Source: Planctomycetaceae bacterium
Lineage (GTDB): Bacteria > Planctomycetota > Phycisphaerae > Phycisphaerales > Zrk34
Direction: 5' to 3'
Length of the DNA: 64,000 nt
Assembly (NCBI GenBank): GCA_002685935.1
Contig: NYZD01000168.1
Location: forward strand, 1 to 64,000
In this document: piece after piece, positions 1,165-11,425 of the stretch
Numbering within the stretch: the stretch's first letter is position 1
How the letters are laid out: each line of letters opens with the position of its first letter
The notes under the pieces: model-generated
What the model was told of the DNA's origin: nothing
Databases searched by the model: none
The model's input: the letters and a program-made list of their open reading frames with translations, nothing else
Position numbers and translations under genes: made by a program

Positions 1165-2235
1165 ATGCCGAGGATGAACTGTCGCGAACGCTGGCTGGCG
1201 CTGCTCGAAGGTCGCCGGCCCGATCGCATCCCGACCGACTACATGTCCACCGATGAGTTTCATGGTCGCTTCAAGCGCGATCTCGGCTGCGAAACCGATG
1301 AAGCGATGTTCGAGCAACTGCACGTGGACTTCCCCGCGAGCATCAACGTTGCGCTTGAGCCCAAGCGTGAACACGAACCGTCAACAGACGATACTGTCGA
1401 TATGTGGGGCATTGGCCGCGCGTCGGTCGCCTACGGCACCGGCGCGTATAACGAGGTCGTCCACAATCCGCTCGGCCAGGCGCAAACCATCTCGGACGTT
1501 GAGGCGTTCGACTGGCCCGAAGCCGATGACTTCACCTGCACCATCAATGCGTCTCCATCGCCCACGCCCCACGATACGCGCATTGTGCGCGGCGGCGTCT
1601 ATGAACCGTTCCTCCTCGTCTGTGCGATGCGCGGTCTGGAGCGGGCCTTCGAAGATCTGATCCTCAATCCACCGATTATCGAAGCGATGCTCGATCACAT
1701 CTTCGCGTTCAATTACGCGATCAATCGCCGACTGTTCGAGGCCGCCGGTGACAAGATCGACCTGTTTTACCTCGCTGAGGACCTCGGCGGCCAGCACGGC
1801 CCGCTCATGAGTCTGGAAATGTACCGACGCTTCCTCCTCCCGCACCAGGTGCGCATGGCCGAGCTCGCCCGCCAACACGATGTTCACGTGTATTATCACA
1901 CCGACGGCGCATCACGAATCTTCCTGCCCGATCTGATCGACGTCGTCGGCATCGAGGTGCTCAACCCGATCCAGTGGCGCTGCCCGGGCATGGAATGCGC
2001 GTCACTGGTGCGGGATTTCGGCGATAAAGTCGTCTTTCACGGTGCGATGGACAATCAGCAGACACTACCATTTGGAACTGTGGACGACGTCCGGGCAGAA
2101 GTGCGGGACCACATCAAAGCGTTCGAGAACGCGCGGTGGGTCTGCGCACCGTGTCATAACATCCAGGCGAATACGCCAACGCAGAATGTCGTTGCCATGT
2201 ATGAAGCGATTCACGAGTTGGGCGCGCTGACTTGA
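1165..2235 (+). CDS. Uroporphyrinogen decarboxylase-fold (URO-D family) protein
   Basis: This is a 356-residue protein of the URO-D superfamily, resembling the stand-alone planctomycete and Firmicutes members related to methyltransferases (MtaA/CmuA-like) rather than HemE. The start at 1165 is chosen because GGAGG lies 7 nt upstream; an in-frame ATG at 1141 lacks this. Family features include the N-terminal RERWLALLEGRRPDRIP block, the middle DLFYLAEDLGGQHGPLMS segment and the late HYHTDG-like stretch (YYHTDGASR). A C-terminal CAPCHNIQANTP segment could bind a metal or cobamide-linked substrate. It stands alone, about 100 nt after the TPR gene. HemE activity is unlikely given the divergent N-terminus; the substrate is unknown. 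Confidence 0.8.
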   Translation: MPRMNCRERWLALLEGRRPDRIPTDYMSTDEFHGRFKRDLGCETDEAMFEQLHVDFPASINVALEPKREHEPSTDDTVDMWGIGRASVAYGTGAYNEVVHNPLGQAQTISDVEAFDWPEADDFTCTINASPSPTPHDTRIVRGGVYEPFLLVCAMRGLERAFEDLILNPPIIEAMLDHIFAFNYAINRRLFEAAGDKIDLFYLAEDLGGQHGPLMSLEMYRRFLLPHQVRMAELARQHDVHVYYHTDGASRIFLPDLIDVVGIEVLNPIQWRCPGMECASLVRDFGDKVVFHGAMDNQQTLPFGTVDDVRAEVRDHIKAFENARWVCAPCHNIQANTPTQNVVAMYEAIHELGALT

Positions 2236-2304: not shown

Positions 2305-3957
2305 TTACGGCGCCAACTGCTCAGCGGGAATTGCGCGAGCTTCGATCCGCGCGTCGGTCACCGTCCCGTTGAAGCGCGCCCCGCCCGCCGGAAGCGCTCC
2401 GATCGTGACCGGCGCATCGCAGTTCTGAATCAGCCCTGACGCGTCACGTGCCGCCACGCACTTCCGATCCACGTATAGACGCAGTTGCTGTCCGTCGTAG
2501 ACCCCCGCCAGGTGGTGCTCGCCCTCGTCAGGCGCATGATGCCAGGCGATGCTGATGACACCGGTTGTCGTGTTCACCAGGAAGCTCGGCCCGGGCGCCG
2601 CCGCGCAAAGCCCGCCGTTGTGTCCCAGATCGCCGTATCGCAGACTGAATGACCCATGCTCGCCCAGCGTGTCGTGTCGCAACACATTGCCGTGGACGCC
2701 GATCTCGTCATCGGCCTCCTTCAAACGCCAGGGCGCCGAATAGAAATATCGCCCGTCAAACGCCCCGCCGTTGTAACCGTAACTCGCGATGCCGCTGGTG
2801 TGGGCGTGATCGATCGCGCTCCACGATTGCGGATCATCAAACGTCCCCGCCGTGTCGTAACGCAACAGATTGCCGTGGAGTTTGAACTCCGCAGGTCCAG
2901 CATTCTCACGAATGAAGGGAATGAAACAAACGAAACGCCCGTCAAAATAGGCGCCGTCGAATCCCGCCGTGCGCAATCCGTCCGTGTGATCGCCGTCGTA
3001 ACAACTAAAGGCCGACGGATCGTCAAAGTCGCCGGTCGTGTCGAAACGCACCACCCGGGGATTCTGATACGGTGCGTAATAGATGTACCGGCCGTCGAAC
3101 ACCGCACCCACGCACATGCCCATTCCCCGCGGCGCCAAATCCTGACACTGCCAACTACCTGCGTCATCGAACGCGCTGGTCGTGTCGTAGCGCGCCGCCA
3201 CGCTCTGATTCAGCGGCACGAAATAGATCCAGCGCCCGTCAAACGCCGCGCCGTCGAAACACGCCGCGTCCGGCCCACCCACCGTCGTGGCATCAAACCA
3301 CGCGTAACTCGACGCGTCATCAAACGGCGCGTGCGTGTCATAGCGAATCACCTCACCGCTGTGATTGCTAACGTCTTCCTCGCCGCCGTAGCCCGGGCAC
3401 AGGTATAGGTACCGCCCATCGAACGCGGCGCTCTGCGATGAATGGTCTCGTCCAATGTCGAACGCGGCCCACGCTTCCGTGGCGCTGAATTCCGCCCGTG
3501 TGTCATAGCGCAACAGTCGCGTGTGAAATCCGCCCGCGTGACTATGCCGCGGAACGAAATATACGAACCGCCCATCAAACCCGGCGCCGTAATATCCCCG
3601 GCAATCCAGACCGCCGGAACTCGATGCGTCGTACGCCGCATAGCTGGCCGCATCCTCGAACGGCGCGTGCGTGTCATAGCGCAACACGTTGCCGTGCGCG
3701 ATCAGCCCTTCATGCTGCTCGGGACTGAAATACACATACCGGCCGTCGAACACCGCCCCGAAGTAACCGGTGCAATTCAGCCTGCCGATCGCCGACGCGT
3801 CAAACGCATCGAAACGGCCAAACTCCCGAGGGGGTGCCCACTTCGATACCAATGTCTGCATCTTCTCAACGCGGCGAGCGCCGGCCCGCACCCACGCCTG
3901 AACGGTAAGTTGATCCGTGAGCGTCGGACACGCAGGTGCTTCGCAATGCTCTGGCAT
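2305..3957 (-). CDS. LamG-like protein interrupted by a seven-repeat beta-propeller
   Basis: The 550-residue protein has no signal peptide. Residues 18-40 (LTVQAWVR..QTLVSKW) look like the first strands of a LamG/concanavalin jelly-roll. Residues 435-550 (GSFSLRYGD, HHLAGVYDGQQLRLYVD, APVTIGALP) look like the rest of that fold. Between them lie seven repeats of about 50-60 residues, each with a core of the type GAxFDGRYVYFxP followed by RYDTxxxFDD. Seven such units would suit a seven-bladed propeller. The start follows an in-frame TGA, so it cannot extend upstream. It lies 73 nt after dnaK on the same strand. A carbohydrate or surface-binding role is inferred from LamG only. Confidence 0.7.
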   Translation of the reverse strand: MPEHCEAPACPTLTDQLTVQAWVRAGARRVEKMQTLVSKWAPPREFGRFDAFDASAIGRLNCTGYFGAVFDGRYVYFSPEQHEGLIAHGNVLRYDTHAPFEDAASYAAYDASSSGGLDCRGYYGAGFDGRFVYFVPRHSHAGGFHTRLLRYDTRAEFSATEAWAAFDIGRDHSSQSAAFDGRYLYLCPGYGGEEDVSNHSGEVIRYDTHAPFDDASSYAWFDATTVGGPDAACFDGAAFDGRWIYFVPLNQSVAARYDTTSAFDDAGSWQCQDLAPRGMGMCVGAVFDGRYIYYAPYQNPRVVRFDTTGDFDDPSAFSCYDGDHTDGLRTAGFDGAYFDGRFVCFIPFIRENAGPAEFKLHGNLLRYDTAGTFDDPQSWSAIDHAHTSGIASYGYNGGAFDGRYFYSAPWRLKEADDEIGVHGNVLRHDTLGEHGSFSLRYGDLGHNGGLCAAAPGPSFLVNTTTGVISIAWHHAPDEGEHHLAGVYDGQQLRLYVDRKCVAARDASGLIQNCDAPVTIGALPAGGARFNGTVTDARIEARAIPAEQLAP

Positions 3958-7072: not shown

Positions 7073-10000
7073 CTACTTAAACAGCTGCCGCAGACCTTCC
7101 TTGATCAATCGGTCACGAATATCTTCCTCGTCTTCTTTCTCCTCGCCGTCGCCCTGCGGTTGCTTATTCTCCTCCGGGGTCGGCTGCTCCTGTCCGTTTT
7201 CGGGGGCGGGCGGCGCGTCCCCATCCTGCCCGCCGCCAATAATGTCCAGCACGTTGCCGATGATCTCGCCTTCGTCGCCGCCGAGTTGCTTCTTGGCGAC
7301 CAGCGCCGCGATGCGCGTCGTCGCCGCGCCAAAGTCCACTTGCGGATCGTCAATCGTGCCCCGCATCGGGATCTGCAGGATGTAATCCTCCGCCAGACCC
7401 TCAAGACCGAACGCATCGTCCAGCGTTTGCGCCGTGAGGCCCAACACCATATCGATGCGGTTTCGATTGAAATCAGCCTTGCCCCATGTGGCGATGCGGA
7501 AGCTCTCGGCCAAGATGATGTCCATCCGATCATACGTGGCGATGCCGCCTTGCAGATGCGCCACCAGCGGTGTGAACCGCGCGGTCAACTGCTTGCCGCC
7601 TCCCCGTTTGAGCAGCAGCATGAGCTTCTGCAGGATATCCCCGTTATCCATCACGATCGTGCCCAGCTCGAGCCGCGCTTCGGGAATCGTGGCTCGCTTG
7701 ATGTCAAATCCCCACGCCCCTTCCTTGTCCGCCAGATTGATCTCGGTCAGTCGACGCTTGGGTTTGCCCCCGTCCGTCGCCGGAATCTCCATGTACGCCG
7801 GTACCGTTAGACGAATCGGCTTCTCGGCGCTCACCGCCTGCACGAGCAACGGATTGATATTCTTCAGCACCTTGGCGCCAATCTCGCGATTCACCAGCGT
7901 TTCCGCCACCACTTCCTTGCGAAGCGTCACCCGCTGATCGCGCAACTGAATCGGCACCTCCGCTGCGCCGTTCAGCCCCGCGATCGACGCGTTGATCGGG
8001 CCGTCCATCTCCTTCAGATCCGCCGAAAGATCCACACGGAACATGCGGCCCACAATCACCATGACTTCTTCACTGGCCCCGGGCACCAAGCTCATCGGCA
8101 CCGGACCCGCCACCCCGTCGATCTTCACCGTCGCTGAATCAAGATTGAGTTTCCCATCAGGACCGAACAGCTTGACGAGGCGGCCCTGAATCTCGATCTT
8201 CTCCGGATCAGTCGACTTCTTCGTCGGGGCCTTCGCGTCGGGTCGAACCGTAATGAACGTAATTGCCGGAGGCGGCTTCACCGCGGCGCCGGCTGTACCG
8301 CCCGTCATCACATCCGTCGCGGCCACCATCGCGGACGTCGCGTTGTGGCCCTTCATGTCGAACGCAACCACCTCGGAAAGCCTCTCACCGACGAGCTCCG
8401 CCCTGAATTGCGTCAGATCCATGCGCTGCTTGCCGACAACGTCGTGCAACGACAGCTTCTCACTGGCGACCGTCAGACTCACCGCCGCCTGCGTCGCATC
8501 AAATCCAAACGCCCCACTGTCCGGCTTCGCCGGCATCACCAGTTCATCCACCGTCACGACGATGATCGCCGGTTCCAGCAGATCGATCTGTTTCGCTTTA
8601 TCCCCGACCAACGATCGATACGTCTCCGGCTGCATCGTCCATTGGATGCGACCGGGCTTCACGAATCGAAAATCCCGAGCCGCTCTGAACGCCGTGTCCG
8701 CGGTCAGATAATCGCCGCGCACCGCCAGCGTCCCCGTGCCCTGCATCGGTCGCATGCCCGTAAGCTTCGCCCGGCCGTCGACCGACACCAGCGCCCCCAC
8801 GATCGGCTCCAGATCCGACAACTGCCCGCCCGCCAGCGCCAAGACCCCCGTCGGCAGTCGTTCCACCTTGATTGTCGCTTCGATCGGCGCTTCGGAGATG
8901 GCCAATGCCCCATCGCGCAATACATCTGACAGCGTGGCATCCACCACTAACGACCCCGCATCGTCGCGCTGCGGAGTCTGTGTTTCGCCGGAGACGTGAA
9001 GTGCAAGTTGATTCGTCGACCCGTCAAGTCCGAACGTCGCTGTCGTGTTCGTCAGTCCCATGCCAACATATCTCGGATCGCCGGCCAGCATCAGCCGATC
9101 GATCCTGGCCCCGCCCGTCACCCGCGCCGTCGACAGATCACCGCCACCCAGCGGCCACGCCAGCGCGTCCACTGTCAGCTCAACCGGTGTGTCGCCCGCA
9201 AGCGTTGGCTGACCTTCAACAGCAAAATCCAATGCCGCTAGCATCTGCGGCCCGGCCAGTAATTTCGCGATCGTCGCCGGCTGGTTGGATTGCAGTGTCA
9301 CTCGACTCGAAGTCACATGCAGGTGCGATGTCACATCCGCCCGCGGCGCGCTGGCGATGATGTCCACGCCAAACGCCTCGATGCCCCCATCCGACCCAAG
9401 ACCCCCATTCGCCGTGATATTCACATCGACCACACCACCCGCCGTCGACGCCAGTTGACTCGTCGGTGCCGTCGGCTCCAGTCGACCCTTCAGCGTGGCC
9501 GACATCGCGGTCAGGGACGCGCCACCGACGTCCGCGCGCACGTCGATCAGGCGCACGCCGCCGAGTTCCGCCACATCGCCAATGACCGCATCGCCCAACT
9601 CCAATGATGCCGCCAGCCGTGACGCCGCCGGCTGCAACGTCGGATCTCCGTCCCCGGGGATCGGCAGCCGCAGATCCGTGATCGTCAGCACATAGTCGAC
9701 CGGCGCCGCCAGTTGGCCGATTTGCCCGGTTGGAACGAGCGCCGCCACCAACGCCGGCGTTGCCTGACCCTTGATAATCGCCGGCGCGTCACCGATGCGC
9801 AGCACGCCCTCAATTATCTCCACCGGAAGACGCCCGCTGAAGCGCCTCGGCGTGTGCGACCGAACATCCAGCGTCAGCAACTGCCGCGCGCCGGCCGTGG
9901 ACGTCAGATCAACGTCACAATGCGACCCCAACATCTCTTCCAGCACGCCGCCCATGTCGATCACTCGATCCACCAGTGCCGACGGTACCTGTTCCAGGTG

Positions 10001-11425
10001 GCCCACGATATTTGTTGTCAGCCGATCGAGTTGTAGCCGACCGTCAGCGTCAACCGCATCGCTAATTGTGCCGTTGAGCTGAAGACCGCCGCGATCGCTG
10101 CCCTGCAGAATGTCACCTGAAGCGGCCAATGTGATCGCATCCGCCAGCCGCTGCGTGCCTACCGAGCCGCTCAATCCCTCGATCACGATATCTCCGAGCG
10201 TCGGATCGCCCGTCAATTCCACATCCCCGATGCCCAGAACAATCTCCGCCGCAGCCGCCGCCAGATCAATGTGAACTCGCCGTGTCGGCGCATCGATCAC
10301 CGCCGGCACTGACAATCTGTTGACCTTCAGTTCGACCTCCACGCGGCCCGCGAGTACCAGGGGATTCTCCCGGCCCATGCGTGTCTGAATCACGTGTGCC
10401 AGGGCGGGCTGCGCGTACCACACGCCCTGGCCTTTCGTCACCTGCAGCACACCCCCGGCCCACTCGACGGTGAACTCCTGCCGTCCGTTCGTGGTTTTGA
10501 GCAACACCGATTGAGTCGCACCTTCGATGCCGTTTGCACATTTCAAATGACTTGAAAAACTGACAGATTCGCCCGTCGCCGCATGCAATACGCCGTTTTG
10601 CCCGAGCAACATGTCAAGGGCCTCGGCCGGAAGATCCTCGACCTCCGCATCGACCTCCGCGCTCACCCGATCCAGATGCAAGACACCCTCGGCATTGAAT
10701 CCGCTGAGCGTGCCGGCGACATGAACCGAGCCGGTCAGCTTGCCCTGTTTGGCCGTCGCGTCAAGCGAAAGCGCCATGGGTCGGCTGATGTCTTCGATGG
10801 TCAGCTCGGCATCGCCGTGGATCTCCGTCGTTTGGACGCCGTCGACCCGCAGGATCAGGTCCGTCACCTTGATCTGCCCCGACAGCGACGGAGGCACATG
10901 CATAATCCCGCCGCTATCCATTCGATCATTCGCCTGTTCGTCTTCTGCCTCGTCCGACGGGTCGCGCCCCAGGGCAAGATCGAGATTCAGCTGCTCATTT
11001 GCGTCACGCGTGATTGAAATGACCGGCTTGCTCAGTTCTGTTAAACCAAGGTCGTAATCGCCGCGCGTCAGTTTGACCAGTGAAGCGCCAATCTGCAGAC
11101 GTTCAAATTCGACTACCGGCTCGCCCGACGGATCAAGCAGCTTAAACCCCGTGACCCGCTGATCGCCTAGCCAACTCAGACGAATGCCTTCGATCTCGAC
11201 CGACCCGGGTATGCTTCCGTTGATGCGCCCTACCACGATGCCGCGCACCAGGCCGCTCGATGCGATCAGCGGCCCGAACACCACCAACAAGACCACCACC
11301 AGCACGACGAGCGCAACCAGCCGCCGCCAACGACGCTTGCGCGGTTTGGCCGGCTTGGCCGAAGCTGGTGTCGCAGCCGCTGGGTCTTTCGCGGGCGGTT
11401 CCGTTGAACGTTCTTCGTTGGCCAT
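7073..11425 (-). CDS. Large AsmA/YhdP-like inner-membrane-anchored protein
   Basis: The 1450-residue protein has a charged cytoplasmic N-terminus (about 35 residues, Pro/Ala/Lys-rich), one transmembrane segment at about 36-55 and a very long extracytoplasmic part made of beta-strand-rich, Gly/Asp/Val-rich repeats. The opening after the membrane segment (GRINGSIPGSVEIEGIRLSW) and the C-terminal IPMRGTIDDPQVDFG block are typical of AsmA-like proteins. The tail is acidic and Gln/Pro-rich, with a final basic helix. In Proteobacteria this superfamily forms hydrophobic-groove bridges for phospholipid transport to the outer membrane. That role is inferred here. AGGGG lies 7 nt before the ATG. Confidence 0.75.
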   Translation of the reverse strand: MANEERSTEPPAKDPAAATPASAKPAKPRKRRWRRLVALVVLVVVLLVVFGPLIASSGLVRGIVVGRINGSIPGSVEIEGIRLSWLGDQRVTGFKLLDPSGEPVVEFERLQIGASLVKLTRGDYDLGLTELSKPVISITRDANEQLNLDLALGRDPSDEAEDEQANDRMDSGGIMHVPPSLSGQIKVTDLILRVDGVQTTEIHGDAELTIEDISRPMALSLDATAKQGKLTGSVHVAGTLSGFNAEGVLHLDRVSAEVDAEVEDLPAEALDMLLGQNGVLHAATGESVSFSSHLKCANGIEGATQSVLLKTTNGRQEFTVEWAGGVLQVTKGQGVWYAQPALAHVIQTRMGRENPLVLAGRVEVELKVNRLSVPAVIDAPTRRVHIDLAAAAAEIVLGIGDVELTGDPTLGDIVIEGLSGSVGTQRLADAITLAASGDILQGSDRGGLQLNGTISDAVDADGRLQLDRLTTNIVGHLEQVPSALVDRVIDMGGVLEEMLGSHCDVDLTSTAGARQLLTLDVRSHTPRRFSGRLPVEIIEGVLRIGDAPAIIKGQATPALVAALVPTGQIGQLAAPVDYVLTITDLRLPIPGDGDPTLQPAASRLAASLELGDAVIGDVAELGGVRLIDVRADVGGASLTAMSATLKGRLEPTAPTSQLASTAGGVVDVNITANGGLGSDGGIEAFGVDIIASAPRADVTSHLHVTSSRVTLQSNQPATIAKLLAGPQMLAALDFAVEGQPTLAGDTPVELTVDALAWPLGGGDLSTARVTGGARIDRLMLAGDPRYVGMGLTNTTATFGLDGSTNQLALHVSGETQTPQRDDAGSLVVDATLSDVLRDGALAISEAPIEATIKVERLPTGVLALAGGQLSDLEPIVGALVSVDGRAKLTGMRPMQGTGTLAVRGDYLTADTAFRAARDFRFVKPGRIQWTMQPETYRSLVGDKAKQIDLLEPAIIVVTVDELVMPAKPDSGAFGFDATQAAVSLTVASEKLSLHDVVGKQRMDLTQFRAELVGERLSEVVAFDMKGHNATSAMVAATDVMTGGTAGAAVKPPPAITFITVRPDAKAPTKKSTDPEKIEIQGRLVKLFGPDGKLNLDSATVKIDGVAGPVPMSLVPGASEEVMVIVGRMFRVDLSADLKEMDGPINASIAGLNGAAEVPIQLRDQRVTLRKEVVAETLVNREIGAKVLKNINPLLVQAVSAEKPIRLTVPAYMEIPATDGGKPKRRLTEINLADKEGAWGFDIKRATIPEARLELGTIVMDNGDILQKLMLLLKRGGGKQLTARFTPLVAHLQGGIATYDRMDIILAESFRIATWGKADFNRNRIDMVLGLTAQTLDDAFGLEGLAEDYILQIPMRGTIDDPQVDFGAATTRIAALVAKKQLGGDEGEIIGNVLDIIGGGQDGDAPPAPENGQEQPTPEENKQPQGDGEEKEDEEDIRDRLIKEGLRQLFK

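Follow-up and report, generated by a model that had tools for sequence, protein, structure and literature searches.

The window, the stretch of 64,000 nucleotides analysed here, carries a gene whose product is very probably a nested two-domain protein, a LamG jelly-roll opened by a whole seven-bladed beta-propeller, as judged from profile comparisons and a structural model (Table 1). The host LamG domain, of the concanavalin A-like fold, would be opened at the loop after the QTLVSKW strand, with the propeller inserted at that point. An earlier sequence-only reading of this DNA had called the nesting of a propeller in a jelly-roll unusual, and we found the same build in at least 48 related proteins. 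LamG, Kelch, TIG, and DUF2341 are already known folds or domains; the novelty lies in the unusual nested order. Nested domains probe the limits of fold tolerance to insertions: here a guest over twice as large as its host has apparently entered a single jelly-roll loop, the blade count stays fixed at seven across at least 48 proteins, and one lineage shows a second propeller taken up by the first. The nested family also exposes a propeller repeat that lacks Pfam coverage and readily escapes notice, since all that automatic annotation picks up is the C-terminal half of the LamG domain.

Table 1. Features of the gene for the putative nested protein, with positions in the window.
Feature	Position	Strand	Basis
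Whole gene, LamG probably split by seven-bladed propeller	2305..3957	-	550 aa, ATG start
LamG N-half, residues 1-47, predicted strands 17-25 and 34-39	3817..3957	-	Joined-flank profile matches, model
Inserted propeller, residues 48-431	2665..3816	-	Seven blade-profile matches, model, Foldseek to beta-propellers
Velcro strand (fourth strand of blade 7), residues 49-53	3799..3813	-	Predicted strand in AlphaFold2 model; rest of blade 7 has three strands
Blade 1, residues 64-120	3598..3768	-	Model and blade profile
Blade 2, residues 121-172	3442..3597	-	Model and blade profile
Blade 3, residues 173-232	3262..3441	-	Model and blade profile
Blade 4, residues 233-280	3118..3261	-	Model and blade profile
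Blade 5, residues 281-331	2965..3117	-	Model and blade profile
Blade 6, residues 332-393	2779..2964	-	Model and blade profile
Blade 7, three strands, residues 394-431	2665..2778	-	Model and blade profile
LamG C-half, residues 432-550	2308..2664	-	Pfam LamG_3 E=7.9e-12, profile 57-150
GHNGGL loop, residues 445-450	2608..2625	-	Near-invariant across nested family

Gene context and repeat structure

The 550-aa ORF starts 73 bp after the stop codon of dnaK on the same strand, and its end lies 69 bp from a convergent gene for a UroD/MtaA-like methyltransferase (window 1174-2235, plus strand). Both the frame and the sequence of the ORF are conserved in homologues at about 43-55% identity, which identifies it as a real gene; a chimeric assembly or a chance ORF is ruled out by the 48 homologues. 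Further along the window, a 1450-aa ORF (7073-11425, minus strand), by its look an AsmA-type large protein, shares its strand with a PhyH-like gene and dnaK and lies upstream of both. Judged by eye, the window protein has no hydrophobic leader, with only 16 residues preceding LTV, in agreement with the earlier statement that no signal peptide is present.

Seven FDGR motifs (residues 70, 127, 179, 239, 287, 338, and 400) alternate with seven R[YFH]DT motifs (93-427) over residues 70-430 of the protein. Using a blade profile derived from other members of the family, the window protein being left out, we detected exactly seven blades scoring 36.6-80 bits each, and the same profile found zero blades in 100 shuffles of the window protein. 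The count of seven FDGRYVYF/RYDT units in the sequence-only reading was thus reproduced by both motif count and profile, and its insert of close to 390 residues came to about 384, more than twice the length of the host LamG. For the FDGR/RYDT repeat, no Pfam family scored above its cut-off in the window protein, the best being PD40 (E=0.004) at 17.5 bits, below its cut-off of 20.9; there was also no Kelch or WD40 Pfam match. A sequence profile search of the PDB gave no propeller relative among solved structures at E<=1 and only weak LamG matches to pappalysin.

The two flanks as a single LamG domain

The LTVQAWVR..QTLVSKW strands occupy residues 17-40 and GSFSLRYGD residues 435-443, as previously proposed for the end of the N-terminal strands (about 40) and the resumption of the fold (near 435), with the C-flank beginning at about 432. 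In the uncut protein, Pfam sees the C-half only (residues 458-548, profile positions 57-150, 46 bits). When residues 1-47 were joined to the C-half, the match to Laminin_G_3 (PF13385) extended over positions 9-150 of 151 at 54.5 bits; both scores exceed the gathering cut-off of 27.6 bits. With an independent LamG profile, based on 22 LamG domains that run without interruption in related genomes, the joined flanks scored 65.5 bits over positions 12-154 of 155, so that the concatenated flanks match two different profiles end to end, and the C-half alone scored 52.5 bits. Fifty shuffled N-flanks placed before the C-half gave a mean of 51.5 and a maximum of 53.8 bits by this profile, and propeller fragments substituted for the N-flank reached at most 52.5 bits. 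The N-half by itself covers positions 12-42 at 15.6 bits and is too short for a confident Pfam hit.

Across the family, both flanks are retained together in 48 of 48 members. The joined flanks scored above all 50 shuffles of a member's own N-flank in 36 of the 48, while 12, including the planctomycete orthologue L007, failed to exceed all of theirs. In two more distant relatives, the halves match consecutive, non-overlapping parts of the LamG profile (1-42 and 63-155 in L121; 1-40 and 66-155 in L120c). The joined flanks of L013, from a planctomycete genome, match positions 1-150 of 151 of LamG_3 at 108.7 bits, level with the best ordinary uninterrupted LamG that we found (111 bits); in this protein the first edge strand is present and the propeller is inserted at the same VSKW point as in the window protein.

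AlphaFold2, run on the full chain with an alignment of four sequences only, gave a model with a pTM of 0.80 and a pLDDT of 74, and its strand order is the one expected of a nested protein: LamG strands (17-25 and 34-39), velcro strand (49-53), six four-stranded blades, a three-stranded blade 7 (393-429), and LamG again (437-539). Together, the model, the blade profile, and Foldseek indicate seven four-stranded blades closed by velcro, and the repeats therefore form a closed propeller in the prediction, as the sequence-only reading had supposed. Foldseek matches to the model were mostly beta-propellers, including YncE (TMt 0.69) and WD40 types. Low pLDDT occurs at residues 1-8, 445-453, and 522-527. 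In the full chain, the model includes the last LamG strand (532-539) with a pLDDT of about 84; when the C-flank was modelled alone (overall pLDDT 57.5, pTM 0.56), this final strand was missing and the pLDDT there fell to 34-45. Foldseek with the C-half alone returned weak matches over about 57 residues, among them PAPP-A chains and ConA-like glucanases. The behavior of the C-half fits, indirectly, a half jelly-roll in need of its N-half; the two flanks would then pack on each other in a closed two-sheet jelly-roll, with which the strand order and the confidence values of the model agree.

Two other readings of the flanks were considered. In the window's clade the LamG domain could be an atrophied remnant, its C-half packing on the propeller as a partial sheet and its N-half no longer completing the jelly-roll. 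The first edge strand (about profile positions 1-11) is indeed absent from the window LamG, whose match begins at 9 (Pfam) or 12 (independent profile) and which is therefore slightly trimmed; in addition, L007 and some other members have an N-half with almost no profile score, and the segments of low pLDDT listed above would suit such a state. We nevertheless consider it improbable, because the joined window flanks outscore the C-half alone by 13 bits, all 34 of the 34 non-redundant members keep Q34 and W40 in the N-half, and the C-terminal strand is predicted only with the N-half present. That the flanks are two separate small elements, making the protein a plain string of domains, is highly improbable: the support for flank contact is itself predicted, from sequence and model, and the N-half alone falls short of a confident Pfam hit, yet the halves match consecutive, non-overlapping parts of one profile in the window protein, L121, and L120c, and joined L013 scores as a normal LamG does. 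The original proposal that the flanks form one domain is thus favored by the profile gain over shuffles, by L013, by the co-retention in all 48 members, and by the prediction of the last strand.

In the nested protein as modelled, the chain runs from LamG into the outer strand D of blade 7, through blades 1-6, then through strands A-C of blade 7 and back into LamG. Such a path brings both junctions next to each other in the C-D turn of a single blade, and this explains why the insertion is tolerated.

Putative function of the propeller

Among the 34 non-redundant members, several blades begin strand A with a distinct invariant or near-invariant residue (Y123, Q175, D235, D334, and N396). With the usual propeller geometry, these residues would sit on the side of the propeller away from the LamG junction, the C-D turn of blade 7. 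Such blade-to-blade asymmetry is what a single specific pocket would be expected to show. Our tentative interpretation is that a single asymmetric pocket of the propeller, facing away from LamG, may hold a small ligand, which would probably be a carbohydrate or a sugar acid; LamG would then serve as an accessory lectin or dimerisation unit.

Gfo/Idh-type genes were present at 22 of 40 family loci, whereas of 20 segments picked arbitrarily from the same genomes only 2 had them (Fisher p=0.0008, without correction); for sulfatases the counts were 14 of 40 and 2 of 20 (p=0.06). The neighbor families were assigned by eye from sequence, the control set of 20 segments is small, and syntenic copies make up many of the family loci, which means that the enrichment does not come from independent cases. 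Neither type of neighbor occurs in the window, where the gene sits between dnaK and the UroD-like gene, and for this reason the sugar-metabolism neighborhood gives weak support for function only. A UroD-like gene also follows the orthologue in L026. We rejected this neighbor (window, L007/L026) as a general link, since it was not seen at other family loci, and likewise the histidines before strand C as a metal site, since stand-alone relatives have them too, as part of the repeat, and they are thus not specific evidence.

Two different roles would be compatible with the nested architecture. The propeller could be an enzyme, for example lyase- or hydrolase-like, acting on uronic or sulfated sugars and not a binding module: the polar blade-specific invariants are predicted on one face, H88, H145, H361, and H422 are predicted on that same face, and sulfatase and Gfo/Idh neighbors occur at many family loci. 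We regard this as unlikely, given that no catalytic signature was recognised, that solved structures yielded no propeller sequence relative at E<=1, and that the histidines, which recur in the repeat of stand-alone relatives, may be structural. We are similarly doubtful of a cytosolic scaffold for protein-protein contacts like the WD40 propellers, for which the missing leader, the adjoining dnaK gene, and the WD40 proteins among the Foldseek hits would speak; dnaK is not a recurrent neighbor at the other loci examined, and distant relatives carry TIG domains and are predicted to be surface lipoproteins.

Relation to known domains and nested folds

The joined flanks resemble Laminin_G_3 over nearly the whole of the PF13385 profile; compared with that family, the window protein lacks the first strand, is interrupted after the QTLVSKW strand, and carries a GHNGGL..PGP loop that is near-invariant in the nested family. 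Secreted LamG proteins have a leader or lipoprotein signal, whereas the window protein, as judged by eye, has none. The predicted propeller, with seven four-stranded blades and velcro closure, is built like those of YncE, nitrous oxide reductase, and WD40 proteins, but unlike them its repeat has no Pfam family above cut-off and no solved sequence relative. In prolyl oligopeptidases a propeller is also nested, although the host there is an alpha/beta hydrolase in place of a jelly-roll. Bacterial sialidases show a domain inserted in a propeller blade (PMC4850393), with the guest lying within the propeller, whereas here the propeller would be the guest. Our search of literature outside the subscription journals, for LamG with a propeller or with DUF2341, found no description of the arrangement.

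Family distribution and origin

Our collection of full-length proteins with this nesting comprises 48 distinct members, a lower bound for the family. Every one of them has seven blades, and three show an additional half-hit at the velcro strand. In a genome scan, close relatives came from one Planctomycetota MAG (L026, identical in sequence to G119/L007) and from two MAGs whose deposited name is Gemmatimonadetes. Matches occur in 31 of 64 genomes of the phylum to which these two belong, with up to five per genome; of 392 sampled Planctomycetota genomes, only six, counting the window's own, match at all. In the tree, a single paralogue group of the other phylum contains both the window protein and L007 (clade support 91/86), and this moderately supported placement suggests that the nested gene probably reached Planctomycetota by horizontal transfer. 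Searches of phage, plasmid, and viral contigs gave no full-length relatives, with plasmid matches confined to the LamG part.

In at least 14 of the 48 members, the split LamG is immediately preceded by a DUF2341-like domain, an arrangement resembling that of proteins that combine DUF2341 (PF10102) and LamG, and relatives in planctomycete G092 match PF10102 above its cut-off. DUF2341-LamG[propeller] is therefore probably the ancestral build and the window form a trimmed one, the window protein and most of its clade having lost DUF2341. Two Planctomycetota proteins, L008 and L010, are stand-alone RYDT propellers with no LamG hit and the same velcro closure, L010 having a leader-like N-terminus. 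Propellers of this type may be the source of the insert: one of the same closure would have entered the LamG of a DUF2341-LamG protein, and the window lineage would later have lost DUF2341, any leader, and the first LamG strand.

A third level of nesting

Two G092 genes, L120b and L120c (L021 and L022), have six Kelch repeats (PF01344) between RYDT blades 2 and 3, although the RYDT repeat itself matches no Kelch models. The Kelch-carrying propeller, still with seven RYDT blades, is itself within LamG, giving three nested levels (LamG > RYDT propeller > Kelch). One speculative scenario would have a recurrent LamG insertion site building nesting three levels deep, with the RYDT propeller as an undescribed family whose LamG-nested form, marked by blade-specific invariants, might have been specialised for ligand binding or catalysis in the sugar catabolism of an uncultured phylum and then passed to Planctomycetota.

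Among the planctomycete relatives, a 1590-aa protein (L121:4282-9051) combines a lipoprotein-like leader, nine TIG domains, DUF2341, and a LamG-nested propeller. A third tandem gene in G092 (contig C20) is split over two overlapping ORFs (L120:1797-5234 and 847-1956), the first with four blades and nine Kelch stretches and the second with three blades and the LamG C-half, and it apparently contains two Kelch insertions.
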